Source: Bacteroidales bacterium
GTDB lineage: Bacteria; Bacteroidota; Bacteroidia; Bacteroidales; UBA3824
Direction: 5' to 3'
NCBI GenBank assembly: GCA_017535325.1
Contig: JAFXUC010000052.1
Span: forward strand, 1-47,028
Length of the DNA: 47,028 bases
Shown: positions 2,504 through 42,761 of the stretch, piece after piece
How the letters are laid out: each line of letters begins with the position of its first letter
How positions within the stretch are numbered: the stretch's first letter is position 1
Translations under genes and position numbers: made by a program
Notes under the pieces: generated by a model
The model's input: the letters and a program-made list of their open reading frames with translations, nothing else
The model's database searches: none
What the model was told of the DNA's origin: nothing

Positions 2504-5287
2504 TTATTCTATACCGTACCGGCTCAAAATTGATTTCAGTTTTTCAATGTTGATCGGTTTTGAAAGCGATTCGTTGCAGCCCGCTTTCAGGGCGGTTTGC
2601 ATGTCGTAATGATAACCAGCCTCCATGATTGCAGCAATCGGCGTTAAGTTGCCCGCCTTGCGTATCTTTTGAGCGGCTTCAAGTCCGCTGAAACACGGAA
2701 GTTCAACGCCCGTAATTATCAAATCAAATTTCTCTGACAAGGCTTTTTCCACGAGTGTCTCGCCGTCAAAAGCATGTTCCGTGGTGTAAGCCCCAAGCGC
2801 GTTTTCAAGCAGCGAATAACTGTTGAGGTCGCTTTCGGCAATGAGGATTTTGTATTTTTTGCTGCAAGAGACGGTTTCTGCCGGTATCGTAGACTCGTAA
2901 TTTACGGGCGGAAGGGTGAAGATGTTGACCTCTGTCGGCAGCCACGCCCAAAACAGCGAGCCTTTTTTTACCTGCGATTCAAAACCTATCTTACCGCCTG
3001 CGCTGTCAACTATCGTTTTGCAAATCGGAAGTCCGAGACCTATGCCGCGTTTTTCTTCGTTGATTTTTTCAAACGGTAAGAAAACCCTCTCCCTGTCAGC
3101 GGGCGAAATGCCGCAGCCCGTATCCTCGACGAAAAGAAAAATACCGTCGTCCTGATATTTGTATCCCATTTTTACGTAACCCCTTACCGTGTATTTCAAC
3201 GCGTTGGAAACGTAAATGTCAACAATCCTTCTGACGTATTTTTTGTCGCTGTTGACTATGCAGAAAGGATACGGACTGTCGAGAACGAGTTTGACGTTTT
3301 TGATTTCGACCTCCTGCTTAAAACTTTGATAAATCTCTTTAAAAAGTCTGCTGACATCAAATTTTGAATACGTGAGTTGCGCAAAACCCGAAATCATTTT
3401 TGAGGAGTCCAACAAATTCTCAACCTGACGGATAAGTTCGTGGCAGCCTGTTGTAATATTTCTATAAGCCTCTTCGGAGTTGAAATCTTTTTTGCCAACG
3501 TTTTTTATCAGCAAGGCTGAAAATCCTGTAATGTAATTCATCGGTGTACGGATTTCGTGGCTGACATTTTTAAGGAACGTGGTTTTAAGATTGTCAGACT
3601 TTTCTGCAAGCATTTTTGCCGCTTGAAGTCTTTCTATCATAGATTTGTATTCCGAAATATTTTGTGCGCAACAAATTACGTAACGTTGTTTGTTGTTGCC
3701 GATGTAAAGCGTTTTGTTATAGCGCATTGAAAATTTTGTGCCGTCATATTCAAATTCCACTTCAAATTCTGCACTACCCTCCGCAATGGTTTTCATATCC
3801 GCCTCGTGCCCCATTAACGTTACCCTCGAATGTCCAAAAACTTCATAATCTGTATGCTTGATTATCATCTCGGAATTCAGATTAAATGCATCGCAGTATT
3901 GTTTATTGGCTAAAATGTAGCGGAAATCGTCATCAGCGTCTTTGATTGCAAGCATACAGGGCACAGCGTTGATTAGCGATTTCAAGAAATGTTCACCGTC
4001 TTTTACAGAAGAAATCAAATCGTCCCATTTTTGATTGGTTGTTACCACACCCGTAAAAACCGTAACTTTGCCGTTTTCGTCCGTTTTGGAAGGCGTTATA
4101 AAAAGTTGAACGGTGTGCCAAGCGTTGTTTGACTTAAAACGATAACTTATTGTGGTAAAAATCTGTTTGCCTGCTTTGATTTCCGAAATTATTTTTTCGT
4201 GAGTTTTCAGGTCTTCGGGGTGTACGCTTTTGAGGTAACTTTCAAACGAAATGGCGTTTTGTCTGCCTTGCATTAAGAGTTGACCAGTGTTTACCTCAAA
4301 AGCAAATTTTGTTGTGATAACAGAACTACTATCTCTGAAATCATTGATTTTGAGTTTTTTAAGCAGTGTTTGATACGTAATTTTGTAACACAGACCTTCT
4401 ATTTTGGTAACCCGTCCGTTTTCGTAAACAGCCTCCGTAAGAGTGTTCCAATAAGAATAGCCGCCCTGAATTGAATCGTCAGCCATTCGCATAACGATTT
4501 TTTTGTCGTAGGTTTTGCCTTGAATCATCTTCTCAAAACTGTTCATAAGCACTACAACGTCCTGAGGTTCAAACTGAGCAAAAAACTCTGTTGAATCCTC
4601 CCTACTTATAACACCGCCTTCGTTGAAATATTCCGTTTCGCCGTAATCAACATAATATCTCCAAACTTTGATAATTTTTAAGGGGTAAATTTTTTGAGCG
4701 AGACGCGTTAGTTTTCTATCCTTTTTTCTTGCTTGTTCGAGTTCGGTAATGTCGTTGCAGACAAAAACGATAAAAGGCTTGGGAATATCGGGCATAAAAA
4801 ATTTCTGAACATACAAATCAAAGTATTTCGGCTCGGTATATCCGGTTGCAAACCATTTTCTTACTTCCGGGTCGGCAAAATTGATTTCTATTTTCGTGGA
4901 GAAATTATCTTCGGTTCTTATCCGCTCTTTTAAATTTTCGGTGATGACCGGCGTATTCCAAAGTCCGTTCATAAGGTCGCCTTGAACACTAAACAGCGTT
5001 AAAAAATGCTTGTTGACAAAATATCTTTTGCCGTCATAACAGAAAACCGAGGCGGCAAGGGGTATGGAATTTAACAAATGTGTAAAAGCCGTCCGCCAAA
5101 AACTTTTTTTGTCTTCTATTTGTGCGCGAAGTTCTTCTTGAACTGCCTCTTTTTTTTGATTTTTCAGGTCGTTTAATTGTGCTTCATATCCTTTTTTAAC
5201 GACAAACTCTATGTAAACGGCTGCGATTACGGCTGTTACGATTACTGTGATTATGATTGTTATTGATATAGCGAACATGTTGTCCAT
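2504..5287 (-). CDS. Hybrid sensor histidine kinase with PAS domains and a degenerate receiver
   Basis: A 927-residue membrane sensor kinase. One N-terminal transmembrane helix (about residues 5-28) is followed by a short coiled region and several PAS-like domains (about residues 65-560), then the HisKA dimerisation helix with phosphoacceptor His577 in FLKNVSHEIRTPMN, and an HATPase domain with an N-box Asn (SNALKYT), DTGCGI and GIGLGLPICK. The C-terminal 115 residues have receiver spacing and the conserved Lys of LSKPI. However, the acidic pair reads AESD, the phosphoacceptor position is Gly860 (LIITGVELP), and the beta-4 Thr/Ser is Met, so it probably cannot be phosphorylated. The first gene of a pair with GH95; the stop and the GH95 start almost touch. 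No large extracellular domain is seen, so the signal is probably cytoplasmic or within the membrane. Confidence 0.9.
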   Translation of the reverse strand: MDNMFAISITIIITVIVTAVIAAVYIEFVVKKGYEAQLNDLKNQKKEAVQEELRAQIEDKKSFWRTAFTHLLNSIPLAASVFCYDGKRYFVNKHFLTLFSVQGDLMNGLWNTPVITENLKERIRTEDNFSTKIEINFADPEVRKWFATGYTEPKYFDLYVQKFFMPDIPKPFIVFVCNDITELEQARKKDRKLTRLAQKIYPLKIIKVWRYYVDYGETEYFNEGGVISREDSTEFFAQFEPQDVVVLMNSFEKMIQGKTYDKKIVMRMADDSIQGGYSYWNTLTEAVYENGRVTKIEGLCYKITYQTLLKKLKINDFRDSSSVITTKFAFEVNTGQLLMQGRQNAISFESYLKSVHPEDLKTHEKIISEIKAGKQIFTTISYRFKSNNAWHTVQLFITPSKTDENGKVTVFTGVVTTNQKWDDLISSVKDGEHFLKSLINAVPCMLAIKDADDDFRYILANKQYCDAFNLNSEMIIKHTDYEVFGHSRVTLMGHEADMKTIAEGSAEFEVEFEYDGTKFSMRYNKTLYIGNNKQRYVICCAQNISEYKSMIERLQAAKMLAEKSDNLKTTFLKNVSHEIRTPMNYITGFSALLIKNVGKKDFNSEEAYRNITTGCHELIRQVENLLDSSKMISGFAQLTYSKFDVSRLFKEIYQSFKQEVEIKNVKLVLDSPYPFCIVNSDKKYVRRIVDIYVSNALKYTVRGYVKMGYKYQDDGIFLFVEDTGCGISPADRERVFLPFEKINEEKRGIGLGLPICKTIVDSAGGKIGFESQVKKGSLFWAWLPTEVNIFTLPPVNYESTIPAETVSCSKKYKILIAESDLNSYSLLENALGAYTTEHAFDGETLVEKALSEKFDLIITGVELPCFSGLEAAQKIRKAGNLTPIAAIMEAGYHYDMQTALKAGCNESLSKPINIEKLKSILSRYGIE

Positions 5288-5438
5288 TTATTTTACCGTT
5301 TTTTCAAACGCCAAAATAAATGTTTTTTTTTGAAAAAAAAAGTTTTTTTGAAAAAAATTTTAAAAACTTCCGCCGCAGGTTTTCAAAGAAAGCAATTTAT
5401 TTTTTCTGATAATAAATCATTCACAGGGGGGAAAACCT

Positions 5439-5531
5439 CGTATATACTGAGGAAATGTGTCTTTTTTTTACACATTTCCTCAGTGTATACGGATATATAA
5501 ACTCAGTCAAACAACTGATTAACAGTTATTT
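5439..5531. repeat. Direct repeat copy 1: 53-bp palindrome plus ATPase 3' tail
   Basis: Arms 5439-5460 and 5470-5491 are complementary at 21 of 22 positions around a T-rich 9-base loop. The palindrome sits 11 bases after the stop of the ATPase gene. The palindrome and the last codons of that gene (to about 5531) recur without gaps 1525 bases further on (6964-7056), with about 78 of 93 positions identical by hand alignment. No T run follows the hairpin on the minus strand, so it is not a typical terminator. The stretch 5288-5438 holds only A/T homopolymer runs and presumably the sensor kinase promoter region; no gene is seen there. Confidence 0.85.
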
Positions 5532-6918
5532 GATTTTGAATTTCATCGGCAAAACCACCCTCAAAAATTCCATCAACCGTAATCATAGTAAGAAGAACTG
5601 ATTTTTGAGTTTTTGAATGTTCGATAAAAGTTTGACGGCAGTGTTCCAATCGCAGATATTCTTCTTCCGTAACCTTGAATTTTGTTTTGTAATATTTTAT
5701 TTCACAGAGGTTTATAACATTGTCATCGCGGTCAATAAGCAAATCTATCTGAACGCCTTTGCTGCCGTCTTGCGGACGGTAAAACCAAGAATGTGCCGAA
5801 CTGATTACAGCATTAAAACCCAATGCTTTCTTAATCTGTTCCAAATGTTGCATACAAACTTTCTCGAAAGCAAGCCCCGCCCATGTATTATACAGCGGTT
5901 TGCCAAAGTTAGCCGACCAAAAATGCGGATTGGAATCGCCATTTTGTACCATAAATGAATAATAGAAAAGCGTAAAATTATCAATCAACTGAAAAACAGC
6001 GTTTTTGGATTTGTTGCCGATAAAATTAAATTTGCGTACAAAATCCGATTGTTCAAGTTCGTTCAATGCTTTTGAAAATGTAGCGTTATCGTCAAGACCG
6101 GTTTTCGATAAAATTATTTCACGTGTAAGACCTGATTTACAGCCGCTTAACGCTTTTATAATCGCCAAATGCGGTTCTGGATTTTTAAACAGCGACCTGT
6201 AAAGAGCATTAAACTCGTTAGAAAGTTCGCCTTTTGGGGTAAAAAACATTCTGTCGATGTTTTCGCTGAGACTTTTTCCTTTTTCAAAATATGACCAATA
6301 AAACGGTATTCCGCCCATAATCATATAAGCCTCAATCACTTGCAGACGTGTAAAACCAAATTTTCCTGCTTTTACATACTCTTCACATTCTTTAAGGTTA
6401 AACGGTCTTAAATAAATATGCTTGGTGATTCTGTTGTGAAGTCCGCCGTAATTATTGATAATCTTGTTCAAAATCCATGATGTCGCACTGCCGCAAACAA
6501 TCAAAATAATATCTTTACGCGCTGATGCCCAAGAGTTCCAAAAATGGTCTAACGCTCTGATAAAATTGGATTTAGGCGTGTCAAGCCACGGCATTTCGTC
6601 AATGAAAACTATTTTCTTTTTTTCGGGTGATGCCGATAAAAGTTTTTCCAGAAGATGAAACGCATCATACCAAGTTCTTGGTTCGGGACAACGTTCAAGA
6701 CCCTGACTTTTAAGCGATTCCTTAAACTCTTTCAACTGTTCAGGCAATCCTGCATCAAGAATCCCCGTGTGTTGAAAAGTAATTTTACGGTTAAAAGTTT
6801 CACGAATTAGAAACGTTTTTCCAACCCTTCGTCTGCCATAAACAGCCACAAATTCTGACTGATTTGATTTTAGAAGGTCTTTAAGCCGCTTTTGTTCCGT
6901 TTTTCTACCGATTATCAT
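5503..6918 (-). CDS. AAA ATPase with DUF234-type nuclease-like C-terminus
   Basis: A 471-residue protein of the archaeal-type ATPase/DUF234 group common in Bacteroidota and archaea. The N-terminal half is a STAND/AAA-like ATPase with Walker A GRRRVGKT (about residues 28-35), Walker B IVFIDEMPWLD, and the sensor-like CGSATSWI. A winged-helix-like middle follows (about 250-320: ALSGCKSGLTREIILSKTGLD). The C-terminus has QIDLLID followed by LCEIKYYK, the D...ExK pattern of PD-(D/E)xK nucleases. The cellular role of the family is not established. The gene stands alone: a palindromic repeat begins 11 bases after its stop and a second copy ends 45 bases before its start. That, with the leftover tail beyond, suggests a duplicated or mobile cassette. 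Confidence 0.85.
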   Translation of the reverse strand: MIIGRKTEQKRLKDLLKSNQSEFVAVYGRRRVGKTFLIRETFNRKITFQHTGILDAGLPEQLKEFKESLKSQGLERCPEPRTWYDAFHLLEKLLSASPEKKKIVFIDEMPWLDTPKSNFIRALDHFWNSWASARKDIILIVCGSATSWILNKIINNYGGLHNRITKHIYLRPFNLKECEEYVKAGKFGFTRLQVIEAYMIMGGIPFYWSYFEKGKSLSENIDRMFFTPKGELSNEFNALYRSLFKNPEPHLAIIKALSGCKSGLTREIILSKTGLDDNATFSKALNELEQSDFVRKFNFIGNKSKNAVFQLIDNFTLFYYSFMVQNGDSNPHFWSANFGKPLYNTWAGLAFEKVCMQHLEQIKKALGFNAVISSAHSWFYRPQDGSKGVQIDLLIDRDDNVINLCEIKYYKTKFKVTEEEYLRLEHCRQTFIEHSKTQKSVLLTMITVDGIFEGGFADEIQNQITVNQLFD

Positions 6919-6963
6919 AGCGAATTGATTTTAATTTTACGCTGCAAATATATAAAAAAACTC

Positions 6964-7056
6964 CGTATATACTGAGGAAATGTGTCTGTTTTTTATACAT
7001 TTCCTCAGTATATACGGACATGTAATTTTAATTAAATAATTGATTATAAGTGATTT
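6964..7056. repeat. Direct repeat copy 2: palindrome plus leftover ATPase tail
   Basis: Arms 6963-6985 and 6995-7017 pair at 22 of 23 positions around a 9-base loop. The palindrome differs from copy 1 at about three of 54 positions. The similarity continues without gaps through the following 39 bases (27 identical), which correspond to the last eight codons and stop of the ATPase gene, at exactly the same 11-base distance from the palindrome. It lies upstream of the intact ATPase gene, so its palindrome would be in or near that gene's promoter or 5' untranslated region. Confidence 0.83.
7028..7054 (-). pseudogene. 3' remnant of a second DUF234-type ATPase gene
   Basis: On the minus strand these 27 bases read ITYNQLFN and stop, against ITVNQLFD and stop in the intact neighbour. 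The codon just before is a stop, and nothing further upstream matches. Two of the differences between the copies are silent third-position changes (CAG/CAA and TTG/TTA), which fits divergence as coding sequence before the rest was lost. Very short, so the call rests on the shared palindrome at the same distance. Positions 7058-7137 show nothing else recognisable. Confidence 0.5.
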
Positions 7057-7137
7057 ATGTTTTATTTTTATTCCGAATTTATCCTTGATTTTGCGTTATA
7101 ATACGATGTTGCTTCAAACGACATGGAAGAGAATAAT

Positions 7138-8346
7138 TTACACATCCAACTTCAAATCCCTGAATTGTTTAAGAAGTGTTTTTGCCTCGCTCCCAAGCGG
7201 CTGAATGTTTCGTGCCATTAACAATTCAACAGCCTGACTTTCTACTGTTTTTTTCTTAAAATAACTTTCGTGCGAAAAATTCAAGAACTTCAAAAGCCTG
7301 AAAGCGTCGAACCAGACAAAAAAACGTTTTAAAAAAGTTTTTTCAGTGGCAGAATTTTCTTTCATCTCTTTTAACGCCTCAAAATAGCCGTTTTTCTCCA
7401 AAAATTTCTGCATAACCGTCTGAATTTCACCGCGTAAGAAAAAACTTTTTAAAACTAAAAAACTTTCAAAACAATAAACGTTGTAATCGGAGTTTGCCGT
7501 TTGCTTTATCGAAACGCCCGTCCCGAAAGGCACGCGCAAAGACTGCCTTATTGAGGGAAAAACTTTTGCAGTGTTCAACGAAAAAAACTTTCCCCTCGGA
7601 ATAATTTTTTGTAAAAAATAAAAATCCTCGCCTGCCTGACGGCGGTTCATTCCGCCTTCCAGACAATACGGCTTAACCCTTACCGCAAACGCCGAACCGA
7701 CGGTTTGAAAAGCATACGGGAAACCCGCAAACCTCTGAGCCGCAATGTAATACCGCATATAAAGTTCGTATTTTGCGATTGCCTCTCGGTTTTCTTCCGG
7801 AAAATTTTCGTCAAAAACGTCGTGCTCAAAACTTATTGAAACGCCTTCCGCTTTTTGGTTTTTGAGAAAAAAATTTTCGATTTCTTTCAGGTAGTTTTCA
7901 TGGCAGGTGCAGTCAGCGTCAAAGTTTACGATAACGCCGTCCCCGTTGTCTATGCTGCAAAAACGCCTTACAGCCTCGTCCATGCCGATTTTCCGCGCAA
8001 AACCTACGCCGGCGTGTTTTTTTGGCAGATTGTTTTCTTCAAAACAGAAAAATTTCTTTTCCCTTGTCGAAAAATGTTTGGAAAATTCGTTTATTTCATT
8101 GACAGAAAGACGGTTTTGCGCTAAAACTTCTTCGCTGCTGTTTTCTTTGGCGTTGACAACGACAATAATTTCGACAGGATATTTCGTCGGAGAACATTTT
8201 AAAAGTGATTTCAGCGGTTTTAAAATATCCGGCTCATTGTAGCATGGAATCACCACAACAGTTTTTAAATCCTTGTCGGGCTTTTCCGCAATGTGCGGCT
8301 CTAAAACGTTGTAACGGGAAAAATATGTGTCGAAAAAATTGTGCAT
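7138..8346 (-). CDS. Family 2 glycosyltransferase
   Basis: A 402-residue GT-A glycosyltransferase without an obvious membrane segment. TVVVIPCYNE opens the nucleotide-sugar domain, EIIVVVNAKEN follows, and VNFDADCTCHENYL carries the DxD-type metal site; GEDFYFLQKI looks like the acceptor-side ED motif. The donor and acceptor cannot be told. The C-terminal 120 residues are not recognised. The ATG directly abuts the T tract of a hairpin at 8359-8379, so transcription from the ompH-like gene would have to pass that terminator to reach it. No polysaccharide partner genes adjoin it. Confidence 0.82.
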   Translation of the reverse strand: MHNFFDTYFSRYNVLEPHIAEKPDKDLKTVVVIPCYNEPDILKPLKSLLKCSPTKYPVEIIVVVNAKENSSEEVLAQNRLSVNEINEFSKHFSTREKKFFCFEENNLPKKHAGVGFARKIGMDEAVRRFCSIDNGDGVIVNFDADCTCHENYLKEIENFFLKNQKAEGVSISFEHDVFDENFPEENREAIAKYELYMRYYIAAQRFAGFPYAFQTVGSAFAVRVKPYCLEGGMNRRQAGEDFYFLQKIIPRGKFFSLNTAKVFPSIRQSLRVPFGTGVSIKQTANSDYNVYCFESFLVLKSFFLRGEIQTVMQKFLEKNGYFEALKEMKENSATEKTFLKRFFVWFDAFRLLKFLNFSHESYFKKKTVESQAVELLMARNIQPLGSEAKTLLKQFRDLKLDV

Positions 8347-37068: not shown

Positions 37069-39093
37069 TCAGTGTTGCAGTTTCTTTTCCGTTGTAAAAC
37101 TTGACGCCGGAAGTCCGGCACTGTTATAAAGCGACGGCTCTTTGTAATAATTTTTCCAACAGTATCTTACGTTTTTGGGAGTCAGAACTTTCGGTGAATA
37201 AACGATGATTTTGTTTTTGTCAACGATTTCAGCCTCAGCCTGATAATAAACGCCTTTGAGGTCAGAAATCTCAAACTCTGAAAGTTTTGCGCCCCTTACT
37301 ATAAGACCTGAGGCAACATTGTTGAAAGTAAGCGTTACGGTGTCTTTTGTAATGCTCATGTTGTTGTAAATCGGGCCCATAGTAACACGCGGTTTGTTGT
37401 ACAAATCGTTTAACGCCAAAGCCGCAAGCCTTTCGCCAGCCTCTTTCTTGAAGGCGGGACGGATTGACTCCTTTCTGCCCAAATCCATAAGACAAGCCAT
37501 TCCGGAGTTTGAAATTGACGACAACGCCCTGCGCTGAGCCTCCCTTATCTCGGCTGAATAAACGTCTTTGCCGTAATCGTAAGGCGCGATTTGAGCATAA
37601 TAAAACTTCATGTCCGAGGCCTTAAAAGCGTCCCTCAGACAATGCGCCAACTGAGGCAGAATCTTTACATATTCGCCCGCTTTGCCGATATTGCCCTCGC
37701 CCTGATACCAAATCGTTCCGGCAATTTTGTACGGCGCAATCGGGTTTATCATAGCGTTGTATACGCCTTCGATTGTTTTGTTGTCGGTGTTGATGTCAAT
37801 TTTCGGACGGGAAAAAAAGTCGTTGTTTTTGTGGTCGTAAAGATAAACGTAACCGTTGTAATATTCACCCGTCGGCATGTATTTCCAGTTGCCGGCAATG
37901 TAAATCGCGTTTTCTTCGTCGTCTTCGGGATAAATTTTCATCTCGCTTGCGCGTCCGTAAATACCGCCTTTGAAGTTGGAATCCACAACTCTTATCGCCA
38001 AAAGCATTTCGCCGCTTTTTACAAGGCTTCCGTCAACGGTATAAATACGGTTGACAGTCCATTTGTATTCGCCCCAGGTTTCTCCTACTTTTACGCCGTT
38101 GACAAAGACCTCGTCCATGTCGTCAATATATCCGAGCCTGAGAATGAGTTTTTTGCCGTCCCATTCCTTGGGAATCTCAATCCAGCGGCGGAACCAAATC
38201 GCACCGTCAAAGTTTTTCAGTCCCGGCACTTCGTCAATGTAACATGGAAGCCTCATAACGCCCCAATTGGAGTCGTCGCAAAAAAGTTTGGAGCAGTCAG
38301 CGTCGTGCAAATCCCTTTCCTTTCCTGCCACGAGGTCGCTGATCGGAACTTTTTTGTGCATTGCTATCCATGCGTGGTAACTGTCCCTTAACGGCACAAG
38401 CATTTCGTACTGCGCAACTCTCTGGTGAAATTCGGGGATTTTTTTCAAAAAATCCTTTGAAACCCAACTCTCGCACGCGCTTTCGATGCTGCACGCGCTT
38501 ATAATGCCTATCGGAATACCGGTTTCAGCGTTGATTTTGTGCGCAAAACAATATGCCACCGCGCTTACCTGGGAAGCGTTTGACTTGTCAACCTGAGCCC
38601 AAGAGCCTTCAAAGTCGGTTTCCTGATAAAAAGATTCACGCTGCGGAACGTTTATGAACCTGATGTCTTCGTTGCCGAGATTTTGAATTATCTTGTAACC
38701 GCCCAAAACCGTGTCCTGCAATCCGCTTCCTGTCAGCGGCATTTCCATGTTTTCACCGCCGGCGGCAAGCCAGACTTCGCCGATAAGGACGTTTTGGATT
38801 ACAATTTTGTTGTTGCCTTGAATTTCAACGGTATACGGACCGCCGTGTTCCGGTGTCTGAATATGCGCTATCCATCTGCCGAGACTGTTTGCGGTTGCGG
38901 TAGCCGTTCTGCCCCATGAGGCTGTGATTTCGATTTTTTCACCGGCAGCCGCAGAACCGAAAATCGGACATTTGCTGTTTTGCTGCAAAACCATGTTGTC
39001 CCCGAAAATATGCGGAAGACTGACATCCGCCTTAGTCTTGTACGCCGTCAACGAGAGCAGCAGTGTCAACAGCCAAAAAACTCTTTTCTTCAT
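37069..39093 (-). CDS. Sialate O-acetylesterase homologue, probably inactive (copy A)
   Basis: A 674-residue exported homologue of sialate O-acetylesterases, which remove acetyl groups from sialic acids. Signal peptide MKKRVFWLLTLLLSLTAYKTKA, the N-terminal domain, an inserted jelly-roll sugar-binding domain (about 270-400, IWFRRWIEIPKEWDGKKLILRLGYIDDMDEVFVNG) and the SGNH-type core in the usual order. Three motifs are altered against the family: GEVWLCSGQSNM reads GEVWLAAGGENM, putting Glu114 in the nucleophile Ser position; WYQGESN reads WYQGEGN; and the DIHP-type block reads SIRP, with Arg for His (codon at 37459-37461). Hydrolysis is therefore unlikely; it may bind glycans instead. Second gene of a tandem pair behind GHL10. 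Confidence 0.85.
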   Translation of the reverse strand: MKKRVFWLLTLLLSLTAYKTKADVSLPHIFGDNMVLQQNSKCPIFGSAAAGEKIEITASWGRTATATANSLGRWIAHIQTPEHGGPYTVEIQGNNKIVIQNVLIGEVWLAAGGENMEMPLTGSGLQDTVLGGYKIIQNLGNEDIRFINVPQRESFYQETDFEGSWAQVDKSNASQVSAVAYCFAHKINAETGIPIGIISACSIESACESWVSKDFLKKIPEFHQRVAQYEMLVPLRDSYHAWIAMHKKVPISDLVAGKERDLHDADCSKLFCDDSNWGVMRLPCYIDEVPGLKNFDGAIWFRRWIEIPKEWDGKKLILRLGYIDDMDEVFVNGVKVGETWGEYKWTVNRIYTVDGSLVKSGEMLLAIRVVDSNFKGGIYGRASEMKIYPEDDEENAIYIAGNWKYMPTGEYYNGYVYLYDHKNNDFFSRPKIDINTDNKTIEGVYNAMINPIAPYKIAGTIWYQGEGNIGKAGEYVKILPQLAHCLRDAFKASDMKFYYAQIAPYDYGKDVYSAEIREAQRRALSSISNSGMACLMDLGRKESIRPAFKKEAGERLAALALNDLYNKPRVTMGPIYNNMSITKDTVTLTFNNVASGLIVRGAKLSEFEISDLKGVYYQAEAEIVDKNKIIVYSPKVLTPKNVRYCWKNYYKEPSLYNSAGLPASSFTTEKKLQH

Positions 39094-39124
39094 TTCTTTT
39101 TCAGGTAAATTGTATTAAATAAAA

Positions 39125-41146
39125 CTATTTTTCCGTAAACTTCTTTTCAGTGCTGAAAGAAGACGCCGGGAAACCATCCTTGTTGAAAAGCGACGGTTTT
39201 TCAACCCAGCTTTTGTAAGCATAACGCACGTTTTTAGGCGTTTTACATTCCGCCGGTGCGGTTACAACAATTTTGTCGCCCACGATTTCAGCCTCAGCGT
39301 CGTAAACCGAGCCTTTTGAGTCCATGACTTCAAAGCCGGTAAGTTTGCCGCCCTTGCATACAAGTCCGCCTCCGGTGTGCGAAAAAGAAAGTTGTATCTG
39401 GTTTTTCATAATTGTCATCGAAACAAATTCCGGTCCCATGGTCTCCTGAGGCTTGTTGTACAAGTCGTTCAAAGCCCATGCCGCAAATCTTGCCGCAACC
39501 GCCTTTTTGTCAAGAGCATTGTAACTTGAAAACGACCCCAAATCCATAAGCGGCACCATTCCTGAATTGGGAATCAAAGCCTGACAGCGGCGTTGTGCCT
39601 CGCGCATAAACTGAGAGTCGTCTTGAAGTCCGTTGGGCGGCATCTGGCTGTAATAGAATTTCAAATCGGGATTTTCCGCCGTTTCGCGCCAGTTGGCAAC
39701 CATTGCGGGGAAAAGTTTCATGTATTCCTCAGCCCTTCCGACGTTGGTCTCGCCCTGAGAGAAAATAATACCAGCCGTGGTATATTTAAAAACGGGATAA
39801 ATCATGCTGTTGTACAGAGCCGAAATCGTTTTCATGTTCAGCGACACCGACACGTTGGGACGGTTGTAAAATTCAAGTTTTTTGTAGTCGTAACTGTAAT
39901 ACGTCTCTTTGTAAAACTCTGCCGTCGGTAGGTATTTCCAGTCACCGGCAATGCTGACAGCCTTATCCTGCTCGCCATCGGGATATATGCACATCGACTC
40001 TTTTACGCCGCAGATTCCGCCGCCGTTGCCGCCGTCAATCACCCTGACGGCTATCAAAAGGTCGCTGCCTCGGAGTACGCTGCTCGGTATTTCGTATTTT
40101 CTTTCAAAATTCCACTTTCCGTCTTCAAGTGTCTCGCCGATTTTTTCGCCGTTGACATAAGTAACGTCCATATCGTCAACAGGGCCTAAGGAGAGAATGA
40201 TTTTTTTGTCAAGCCAGTCCGATGGTATGCTGACCCATTTTCTGAACCAGACAACACCGTCAAAAGGTCCTAAACCGTCGGAATTGTCCATATAACTCGG
40301 TAATTTCATGGTTTTCCAACGGCTGTCGTCAAAAGAGAGACGGCAGACCTCTTTGTCAAAAAAGTCAACGCCGTTGAAAGGTTGCTGACCGGGCGCAAGA
40401 TTTATTTTTTTGTGGCTTCTAATCCAGTCGGTGAGATGGTTTTGAAGCGGCAGACAGCGTTCAAAATCCGCGATTTGGTTTTTGAGACTCGGAATCATTT
40501 TCAGAGCCTCAATGTCAGCCCAACATTCGGTGTAACTTCCCGTCCAGCAGATTTGGATTATGCCGATGGGAATTTTGAGTTCTTCGTGCAGTTTTTTTGC
40601 AAACAGATACGCCTGTGCGCTGATGTTGTTCGCTCCCTGCGGGGCACAGGGATACCACCAGCAGTTGTTGTCGTCTTCTTTGTTGAAAGAGGCTTTTTGC
40701 TGGATAATCGTGATTCTGATGTCGTCTTCGGTACAGCCGTCAATAATTTCGCGGCTGTCTTTGATAACATCGTGAGGCGGCCAGCCTGCAAGCGGAATTT
40801 CCATGTTGGTAGTTCCTGAGGCTATCCACACTTCGCCGATTAAAATGTTGCTCAACCGGATATGGTTTTTACCGATAAAATCAATAAAATACGGACCGCC
40901 TGCTATCGGGGTCTGGATTTTGACAGACCAGTTGCCCGAATTGTCGGCTGTGGTTTTTTCCTCAACGTCCCATGAGGCTTTTACGGTAACCTCCTCCATC
41001 GGGTCTGCCGTTCCCCAAAGCGTGCATAACGTCTTCTGCTGCAAAACCATTCTGCTTGCCATAATGTGCGGCAGCGTTATGTTGGCATCAGCGTATAATG
41101 CCGTCAACAACGCAGTTATTACTATAAAAATTTTTTTCAAATTCAT
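39125..41146 (-). CDS. Sialate O-acetylesterase homologue, probably inactive (copy B)
   Basis: A 673-residue paralogue of the next gene with the same domain order. The ATG at 41146 (MNLKKIFIVITALLTALYADA) gives a signal peptide; the longer frame adds a non-signal N-terminus. GEVWIASGTTNM has Thr113 where the family has the nucleophile Ser; IFSQGETN replaces WYQGESN; and the C-terminal His block reads SSYNALDKK, with Asn in place of His (39518-39520). The jelly-roll insert is present (VWFRKWVSIPSDWLDKKIILSLGPVDDMDVTYVNG). Two neighbouring copies losing the same residues in different ways is not easily explained by drift in one. Lies 52 bases after GHL10 and 31 bases before copy A. Confidence 0.85.
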   Translation of the reverse strand: MNLKKIFIVITALLTALYADANITLPHIMASRMVLQQKTLCTLWGTADPMEEVTVKASWDVEEKTTADNSGNWSVKIQTPIAGGPYFIDFIGKNHIRLSNILIGEVWIASGTTNMEIPLAGWPPHDVIKDSREIIDGCTEDDIRITIIQQKASFNKEDDNNCWWYPCAPQGANNISAQAYLFAKKLHEELKIPIGIIQICWTGSYTECWADIEALKMIPSLKNQIADFERCLPLQNHLTDWIRSHKKINLAPGQQPFNGVDFFDKEVCRLSFDDSRWKTMKLPSYMDNSDGLGPFDGVVWFRKWVSIPSDWLDKKIILSLGPVDDMDVTYVNGEKIGETLEDGKWNFERKYEIPSSVLRGSDLLIAVRVIDGGNGGGICGVKESMCIYPDGEQDKAVSIAGDWKYLPTAEFYKETYYSYDYKKLEFYNRPNVSVSLNMKTISALYNSMIYPVFKYTTAGIIFSQGETNVGRAEEYMKLFPAMVANWRETAENPDLKFYYSQMPPNGLQDDSQFMREAQRRCQALIPNSGMVPLMDLGSFSSYNALDKKAVAARFAAWALNDLYNKPQETMGPEFVSMTIMKNQIQLSFSHTGGGLVCKGGKLTGFEVMDSKGSVYDAEAEIVGDKIVVTAPAECKTPKNVRYAYKSWVEKPSLFNKDGFPASSFSTEKKFTEK

Positions 41147-41198
41147 GTTCCAACAGTTTTTATGTTTAAATGTATAAATATGTATGCTACAACAAATT

Positions 41199-42761
41199 TT
41201 ATTCCACCCTGTCTTTTTTACCATATTTTATGATTATCGCCTTTGACGGCTCACTTTCAACATGGTAACGGTTGAAAGAGGTGATTTTGTAAGTGTAATA
41301 TTTTTTTCTGCCGAACAGCGATTTGCCTTTGGTGAAAAGCCTTAAATCACAGTTGTCCGTAAATTTCAGGAAATTTTTCGGCGAAGGCTTGAAATTCGGA
41401 TTTTTGCCTTTTACGCGGTAAATTGAGTAAAATACGGCTGTGTCGGCGGCGGGAAGTCTGCCTTTGTTTTTCTGCCAGTAGATTAAGTACTGACGGTTTG
41501 ACTTTATCATATTTGCGTCGGGTGCGGGCGGACGGTTTTCAATCCACGCCATAAGCGGCTGCATGACATCGTTTTTAAAGCATTTGTTCTTGACGTTCTG
41601 AACCATCGCCATCGGATTTTTTACAATCGTAGTGCTGCGGTAGACAATAACGCCCTGAACGTTTGGATATTTTCTTGTGATGAGAATCTGGTTCGGGATT
41701 TCGTTTGCGTCGTCCCAGCCGACGGCGTTTGTTTCCTGATTGTACGCGCCCAAGCCGATGTAAATGTTTCGTCCGTATGCATGGTCGTTCCACCATTTTA
41801 CCACCTCTTCAAACTTGTTGTACTGATGGTTGATGTTCCAGTAAATCTGCGGCGCGGCGTAGTCAACCCAGCCGTTTTTGAGCCACGTCAAAACGTCGGC
41901 GTAGAGATAGTCGTATGCCGACAGCGAATTTGTCGGGCTGCCGTCCGGGTCTTCTCGCTTGTTGCGCCAGACGCCAGCCGGTCCTACGCCGAATTTTATC
42001 CAAGGCTTTACCTCTTTAATCGCTTTGTAGGCATCGCGCATAAAAACGTTGATGTTGTTTCTGCGCCAGTCGGCTTTGTTTGTAAAGTTTCCTTTGTATT
42101 TCTGATAAGTCGCGTTGTCGTTGATATCGATGATTTTTTTGTCGCCGCCGAAGACGGGATAAGGATAAAAATAATCGTCAAAATGCACTCCGTCAATGTC
42201 ATAACGGGTTACAACGTCAACCAAGATTTTTATCAGATAGTCCCTTACTTCGGGAATTCCGGGGTCAAAATATTTGCTGCCGCCGTAAGTGAAAAACCAT
42301 TCGGGGCGTTTTTTGGAAATATGGTCGGCGCATACGTCGGCATATTGAATCGTCGCAACGGCTCTGAAAGGATTGAACCATGCGTGAAATTCCATGTTTT
42401 TGGCGTGGGTTCTTTCCACCATGAAAGAAAGCGGGTCAAATTCGGGCGAAGGTGCGCGCCCCTGCTTTCCTGTCAGCCATTCCGACCACGGCTCGTATTT
42501 GGATTTGTAAAAAGCGTCGGCTGCGGGTCTTACCTGAAAAATTACGGCATTGTAACCGGCGTTTTTGTATTTTTCCAAAAGACTGAGATATTCTTCTTTG
42601 AGAAATTTGGCATCGGTTGTGGCTTTTGACGGGTAGTCAATGCGCTTTGTAGTGGCAACCCAAACGCCGCGGAACTCGCGTATAGTGTCGGGAAAATGCT
42701 GAGCCGAAACGGAAAAAATTCCGGCAAACAAAAAACTTAAAAGCAAAAAATATTTTTTCAT
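41199..42761 (-). CDS. GHL10-type (DUF187) family glycoside hydrolase-like protein
   Basis: A 520-residue exported protein of the glycosyl hydrolase-like 10 family. Signal peptide MKKYFLLLSFLFAGIFSVSAQ. The TIM-barrel features are EFRGVWVATTKRIDYP, YNAVIFQVRPAADAFY, EFHAWFNPFRA, RYDIDGVHFDDYFYPYP and KFGVGPAGVWRNKREDP; VDYAAPQIYWNINHQYN and IYIGLGAYN follow. The final 120 residues look like a fibronectin-type beta domain. Substrates of the family are poorly known, with peptidoglycan or glycosaminoglycan-like glycans suggested. The gene heads an array of three exported carbohydrate proteins and lies after rpsP-rimM-GNAT on the same strand. Confidence 0.88.
   Translation of the reverse strand: MKKYFLLLSFLFAGIFSVSAQHFPDTIREFRGVWVATTKRIDYPSKATTDAKFLKEEYLSLLEKYKNAGYNAVIFQVRPAADAFYKSKYEPWSEWLTGKQGRAPSPEFDPLSFMVERTHAKNMEFHAWFNPFRAVATIQYADVCADHISKKRPEWFFTYGGSKYFDPGIPEVRDYLIKILVDVVTRYDIDGVHFDDYFYPYPVFGGDKKIIDINDNATYQKYKGNFTNKADWRRNNINVFMRDAYKAIKEVKPWIKFGVGPAGVWRNKREDPDGSPTNSLSAYDYLYADVLTWLKNGWVDYAAPQIYWNINHQYNKFEEVVKWWNDHAYGRNIYIGLGAYNQETNAVGWDDANEIPNQILITRKYPNVQGVIVYRSTTIVKNPMAMVQNVKNKCFKNDVMQPLMAWIENRPPAPDANMIKSNRQYLIYWQKNKGRLPAADTAVFYSIYRVKGKNPNFKPSPKNFLKFTDNCDLRLFTKGKSLFGRKKYYTYKITSFNRYHVESEPSKAIIIKYGKKDRVE

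Follow-up and report, generated by a model that had tools for sequence, protein, structure and literature searches.

Palindromes private to each gene accompany DUF234 ATPase-nuclease genes of a Bacteroidales genus and are likely handles for gene movement

The palindromes, the gene and its protein in the window

A gene for an ATPase with a nuclease-like end lies between two nearly identical palindromes in a Bacteroidales genome, which raises the question whether these palindromes belong to the regulation of the gene, are left over from a lost gene copy or form the ends of a unit that moves. In the window, the whole stretch of 47,028 nucleotides that was analysed, the unit of palindrome, gene and palindrome was located at 5432..7041 on the reverse strand, delimited by blastn against an unrelated site in a Salinivirgaceae genome (L158). 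The upstream palindrome (6963..7017) lay 43 nt 5' of the start codon. It comprised 22-nt arms around a 13-nt A/T loop and showed the half-site geometry common to 34 aligned family members. Between this palindrome and the ATG, a TANNTTTG box, a Bacteroidota-type -7 motif, was read from the sequence at 6945..6952 (reverse strand). The gene itself (5503..6918, reverse strand) codes for a 471-aa protein of the ATPase_2/winged-helix/DUF234 (PD-(D/E)XK-like) type, and the downstream palindrome (5439..5491) followed 11 nt 3' of its stop codon, with arms identical to the upstream copy at 31/32 positions. Both neighbours were assigned by Pfam and are encoded on the reverse strand. The left one is a family 2 glycosyltransferase (7138..8346), which adjoins the kinase gene where the cassette is absent (L083 in G006 and L086 in G016), and the right one is a hybrid sensor histidine kinase (2504..5287). 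Elsewhere in the window, at 37069-41224, two related genes with SASA esterase and GH2-like sugar-binding domains stood in tandem beside a GHL10 glycosyl hydrolase gene.

The preliminary description had reported that the two flanking palindromes are near-identical and exactly 1525 bases apart. This was reproduced for 5439-5491 and 6964-7016, with 3 mismatches in 53 positions and arms that were 95% and 100% complementary, respectively. The description had also extended the repeat by 39 bases into the end of the gene. That extension is indeed free of gaps, but it is weak, with 27/39 identical positions (69%), then 37/55 and finally 16/40; the chance of a 27/39 match is 5.5e-5 per position. On the other side of the palindromes the match ended at once (7/19). 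The tail copy (7017..7055, reverse strand) adjoins the upstream palindrome, corresponds to 5492-5530 and reads ITYNQLFN followed by a stop, as had been described, with a further stop codon in front. It scored 18, where the highest control reached 12, a modest value that still exceeds chance. Among 106 homologs of the genus, tail copies scoring at least 16 were present at L115 (28), L038 (19), L136 (18), the window (18) and L111 (16), and the matches at L038, L136 and L111 consisted mostly of the last bases before the palindrome. Since only about five of the 106 loci carried a tail copy, the gene-tail repeat was dropped as a general feature, and the defining repeat was taken to be the palindrome alone, without the 3' end of the gene. 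A search of the whole genome, as had been proposed, returned the window arm at its own locus and nowhere else when up to 3 mismatches were allowed.

PADLOC assigned the protein to PDC-S27, with 652.5 bits over residues 2-470. Pfam families PF01637 (56.4 bits) and PF03008 (27 bits) were both over the cut-off, and the one match in NCBIfam was far below it. A sequence search for the nearest PDB entry gave nothing convincing (best E 0.28). The AlphaFold2 model had a pLDDT of 93.1. Its best solved match in Foldseek was 2qen, the Walker-type ATPase PAB2304 of Pyrococcus abyssi (E 2.4e-12, TM 0.50/0.64, 350 residues, 18% identity), followed by CED-4 and ORC/Cdc6 proteins including 2qby and 1w5t. From these matches and the secondary structure of the model, it was read as an AAA domain plus winged helix, together with a predicted nuclease fold of the PD-(D/E)XK type, whose D392, E406 and K408 lie on model strands 389-397 and 401-408. 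These three residues, E352 and the Walker residues were invariant in 40/40 aligned relatives, in agreement with the D...ExK nuclease-like end noted earlier. The single gene of the unit holds ATPase and DUF234 families only, and no HUH (Y1) domain was detected. According to the available part of PMC12988326, PDC-S27 and PDC-S01 are abundant ATPase plus PD-(D/E)XK defence candidates, and most PDCs await validation; the window protein is an unproven defence candidate. ATPase-nuclease families are also counted in the defence censuses of PMC12988326 and PMC13356809, as far as the available text of each goes. PMC4858521 was rejected as a source on DUF234; in the part available, its 'DUF234' is DUF2341.

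A palindrome tied to the gene family

Homologs were collected from 18 genomes of the genus, which held 3-46 matches to the window protein each. The loci represent the best among the matches listed, a set that is complete or nearly so only for the window genome (G000), G006 and G001; one locus, L040, is a fragment, and most genomes compared are draft assemblies. A palindrome scoring at least 12 was present within 260 nt upstream of 103/106 homologs, compared with 1/530 dinucleotide shuffles and 3/60 other ORFs. At a score of at least 14, the counts were 90/106, 0/530 and 0/60. The window genome contained 11 further near full-length paralogs and three fragments. Most of these paralogs had a palindrome just upstream, each of different sequence, with the half-site and the spacing shared.

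The association extended beyond the genus. A set of 80 loci from Bacteroidales, Kiritimatiellae, Victivallales, Lentisphaeria and Verrucomicrobia included 78 whose upstream region was long enough to be scored, and an upstream palindrome was present at 51 of them (2/390 shuffles, 11/213 other ORFs). The palindrome also occurred in Segatella copri strain iA622 (L166) and on a complete Segatella hominis plasmid (L325), which rules out metagenome binning as its source. At a score of 11, four of the ten viral-contig loci that were read had a palindrome, and none was detected in the distant relatives, which come from three haloarchaeal plasmids, Wolbachia phage WO and a Desulfosarcina plasmid. The Wolbachia phage WO gene (L329, 1489-2952), a DUF234 ATPase without a palindrome, is annotated as an archaeal ATPase, and the haloarchaeal relatives L330 and L332 are located near ParA genes.

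A related family showed the same arrangement. DUF4143 genes gave 2-53 matches per genome of the genus, and PADLOC called them PDC-S01 in all six that were scanned. In a set of 30 loci (L251-L280), scored on the gene holding the match, three were too short and 22 of the 27 usable loci had an upstream palindrome; the figure for comparison, 3/60, stems from other ORFs of the DUF234 loci. Many of these palindromes had 5-nt loops, for example CAAATTGAAAG-ttgaa-CTTTCAATTTG, and were placed 6-20 nt before the start codon. No literature linking DUF4143 with palindromes was found in a search of publications other than preprints.

For a comparison of palindrome design, 39 centred palindromes were made and 34 were aligned; the second L037 site, L114, L118, L206 and L226 were dropped by eye, and owing to this selection the consensus and model R1 lean towards the common form of the palindrome. 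When registered by their centres, the 34 chosen palindromes showed a common half-site to the left and right of a 13-nt loop that contained an A- or T-run. A set of 124 less-alike members gave a half-site close to TAAYCNGC[GC][AG]AA[TA]CT. All 15 pairs of the chosen palindromes changed on both sides and 94.9% of the cells were paired, compared with 56.9% after shuffling, i.e. the arms remain complementary while their sequence diverges. The loop carried an A-run in 58 cases, a T-run in 38 and neither in 7. A TANNTTTG promoter box was found between palindrome and start codon in 87/103 loci, with 4.6 expected, and in all but one it was positioned 24-41 nt before the ATG. As the loops face either way and the promoter box lies between the palindrome and the ATG, these data point to a double-stranded DNA site beside the promoter, not to an RNA hairpin. 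A role at the RNA level was rejected on the same grounds of loops facing both ways and a promoter box 3' of the palindrome, and G-U pairs were few in this set, which had been selected for Watson-Crick pairs. Mean half-site similarity was 0.48 at a protein identity of 40-50% and grew to 0.77 at 70-90%. Identity of the nuclease core did not track the palindrome, and correlations between single domains and the palindrome, which could indicate the domain that reads it, were weak.

With a covariance model built from the 34 palindromes, 53 matches at E ≤1 were obtained on both strands of the window genome, in about 19 places, one of them weak (C69:141099). Ten of these places were at DUF234 genes or their remnants and two at DUF4143 genes, one of which was confirmed by Pfam. 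Six places lacked a family gene in the ORFs up to 1.5 kb away, the ORFs beside five of the six having been scanned. One of these solo sites is a relic, where G003 holds the whole gene and the window genome shows a deletion whose ends meet at a microhomology of 5 nt. Another is a stretch of about 215 nt with three palindromes, absent in G003 and G006, and adjoins about 1.2 kb that is present in both and absent in the window genome. The solo palindrome G000:C133:56943 (L281) has arms as in elements of G002, G006, G016 and G017; only half of its counterpart remains in G003, near a DUF4143 gene.

With the structural model at E 0.001, at least 3-64 matches were obtained on both strands in each of the 18 genomes of the genus. 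In 19/21 other genomes of the order there were none, and the other two had 3 each; no more than 150 candidates were scored per genome, and the counts are lower bounds. Match counts correlated with ATPase counts (Spearman 0.81). Among the 24 best listed places in G006, 15 had a family gene or fragment no more than 400 nt away, compared with 2% expected, and nine did not.

Units with two ends and sites with and without the gene

The same palindrome was also present 3' of the stop codon at 30 of 103 loci, three of the 106 having been left out for a downstream region that was too short; at 73/103 loci a matching downstream palindrome was absent. Two similar palindromes stood upstream at 37 loci. 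Between the two copies of the 30 two-ended loci, the arms were identical at 461/480 positions on each side (96%) and the loops at 320/403 (79%), whereas the flanks matched at 273/540 and 269/540 (about 50%), near the chance level of 7.6/18. These loci were chosen for arm similarity, and the contrast of the arms with loops and flanks therefore weighs more than the arm figure itself. At four of the 30 (L010, L015, L016 and L051), the downstream loop better matched the reverse complement of the upstream loop, as if the palindrome had been flipped.

The unit recurred at unrelated sites. Positions 7041-5432 of the window were found again in the Salinivirgaceae genome RGIG5159 (L158), with 72.6% identity by blastn over 1623 columns, a protein 75.5% identical to that of the window and different flanking genes. 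L006 of the window genome and L138 of G011 shared 93.6% DNA identity from the outer edge of the palindrome to 8 nt before the stop codon, between unrelated flanks; the best glycosyltransferase match between these two genomes was only 52% identical. Several other locus pairs ended in a similar way, with the shared unit stopping at the palindromes or close to them and, where the downstream copy was gone, at the stop codon or close to it. From these alignments we conclude that gene and palindrome move together from one genome or site to another. With dN/dS values of 0.03-0.16 in 15 pairs tested, dS being saturated in the most distant ones, the genes are under purifying selection. Among the loci sampled, pairs at least 80% alike made up 0/746 within genomes and 50/4714 between genomes, although drafts can merge identical copies. 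This suggests one copy per specificity per genome, unlike a replicative insertion sequence.

Sites were compared by flank queries for 11 elements, six solo sites and 18 elements, which were followed where both flanks were on one contig. The window site between the glycosyltransferase and histidine kinase genes held neither the gene nor such a palindrome in G006 and G016. The proposal of the preliminary description that the cassette inserts at the 3' end of an existing relative, and so restores it, found no support in this comparison. In the close genome G003 (L082, 2485-6063), a BrxC/BrxD ATPase gene (PF10923) and a DEAD helicase gene followed the same glycosyltransferase gene, and the site may for this reason be an insertion hot spot. 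Three more sites of the window genome were empty and free of a palindrome in relatives, namely L007 in G005 and G009, L010 in G006 and L016 in G006. The L007 site of G006 held a degraded copy, and at least 1 kb of other sequence was present at the L010 site in G005, G009 and G016 and at the L015 site in G005.

Within the closest species group (G002, G004, G011, G012 and G013), four sites showed a single palindrome, or part of one, in some genomes and palindrome-gene-palindrome elsewhere. The L145 site had a single palindrome in G004 and G013. At the L050 site there was a single palindrome in G011, a one-arm scar in G002 and nothing in G012, and at the L149 site a single palindrome in G013 and one half-site in G012. 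The L041 site retained one imperfect palindrome in G002 and G004, with two at each end in G011. The step at these four sites comprises exactly the gene and one repeat, and the last event could in each case have been either gain or loss. At the L138 site, three genomes (L344, L345 and L346) kept two palindromes and the promoter, with unrelated sequence replacing the ATPase gene, and at the L143 site G011 had something else. Where the junctions were read by eye for target-site duplication, the flanks were too diverged or the palindrome was retained. Cassette behaviour, which had been offered as one of two options from the window alone, was supported by related genomes with and without the gene and by several clean junctions. 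Two outcomes had been named as speaking against it, i.e. palindromes mostly unconnected with DUF234-type genes and identical flanks in relatives without any sign of gain or loss. Neither was found, as the palindrome was upstream in 103/106 homologs and relatives both with and without the gene exist.

Explanations and meaning for the family

The genes likely use the palindromes as handles for their movement. On balance, we favour a mobile single-gene cassette with two private palindromes, whose protein would bind its palindrome and probably cut or unpair it, letting the gene and one palindrome join or leave a site. The mobility of the cassette is read directly from the compared sequences; binding, cutting and self-mobilisation are what we infer from the protein and its site. 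In this mechanism, the AAA and winged-helix parts of a dimer or oligomer would recognise the dyad, and the nuclease would act at the palindrome by opening or cutting it, upon which the gene and one palindrome would leave or join. Since the promoter directly adjoins the upstream palindrome, the protein may also repress itself. Several observations speak against the cassette: the 73/103 loci with no matching palindrome downstream, the palindromes away from family genes in G006 (9/24) and in the window genome (six of about 19 places), the nuclease core whose identity does not track the palindrome, the distant relatives in which none was detected, and the lack of near-copies within a genome, which is unlike an active replicative transposon.

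The main rival keeps the operator and assigns the movement to the host. The palindrome would be the operator of an autoregulated, horizontally spread PDC-S27 gene, travelling with it only as its promoter region, and host recombination between repeats would make the single-palindrome sites; such sites could indeed be plain losses by recombination between repeats of 50-145 nt. The promoter box between palindrome and ATG in 87/103 loci fits this explanation, as do the PDC-S27 match of 652 bits, the predicted STAND/ORC-like ATPase fold, the diverse repertoire without near-copies in one genome and the relic in which a gene was lost and its palindromes were kept. An operator does not account well for the palindrome 3' of the stop codon in 30/103 loci, where it has no promoter of its own, for arms that stay alike while loops and flanks drift, or for the three relatives that keep two palindromes and the promoter before unrelated sequence at the L138 site. 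We consider this explanation possible, but rather unlikely. The collapse of a tandem gene pair, proposed earlier, would make the repeats the tail and spacer of a lost copy. It may apply to the remnant in the window (27/39), and a tail-like remnant precedes the upstream palindrome at L115 as well. As a general account it is improbable, given the rarity of such remnants, only four family remnants at E <1e-4 in the masked flanks of the genus loci, and the lack of both gene and palindromes at the window site in G006 and G016. That ordinary terminators or REP-like repeats came to lie near the genes by chance would agree with the stem-loop form and with some solo copies. This is the least credible explanation in view of the upstream position, a sequence private to each paralog, the low frequency at other ORFs (3/60), the absence from 19/21 other genomes of the order and a window arm restricted to its own locus.

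The favoured cassette resembles several known systems in part. In REP/RAYT (TnpA-REP) systems, high-copy palindromes are cognate to a usually single-copy gene and flank it. The window palindromes also flank their gene, but the protein has no HUH/Y1 domain as in REP/RAYT or IS200/IS605, and the palindrome is found at the gene itself, with few solo sites and no other arm copy in the genome, instead of in high copy. A classical replicative IS would differ by near-identical copies within one genome, of which there were none among the loci sampled. Integron attC cassettes are gained or lost as a unit of gene and palindromic site; the present unit, in contrast, has its own promoter box, encodes an ATPase-nuclease, contains no integrase and carries a palindrome private to each gene. 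Archaeal Orc1/Cdc6 proteins combine AAA and winged-helix domains and have inverted-repeat sites beside their own gene, whereas the window protein has an extra PD-(D/E)XK domain. PDC-S27 and PDC-S01 in PMC12988326 are likewise ATPases fused to a PD-(D/E)XK nuclease; they are treated there as defence candidates, and palindromes or cassette ends are unmentioned in the part of that paper that was available.

ATPase-nucleases are numerous and unexplained in this genus, and a private DNA site per protein provides a predicted substrate for a gene family of unclear function. More tentatively, the elements could represent a new class of mobile element, in which an AAA-winged-helix-PD-(D/E)XK protein mobilises its own gene with a private palindrome as attachment site and one specificity per genome. 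If this were true, many PDC-S27/PDC-S01 genes counted as abundant defence systems would be such elements. If the palindromes are attachment sites, the high counts of these families in defence censuses would owe as much to mobility as to defence.
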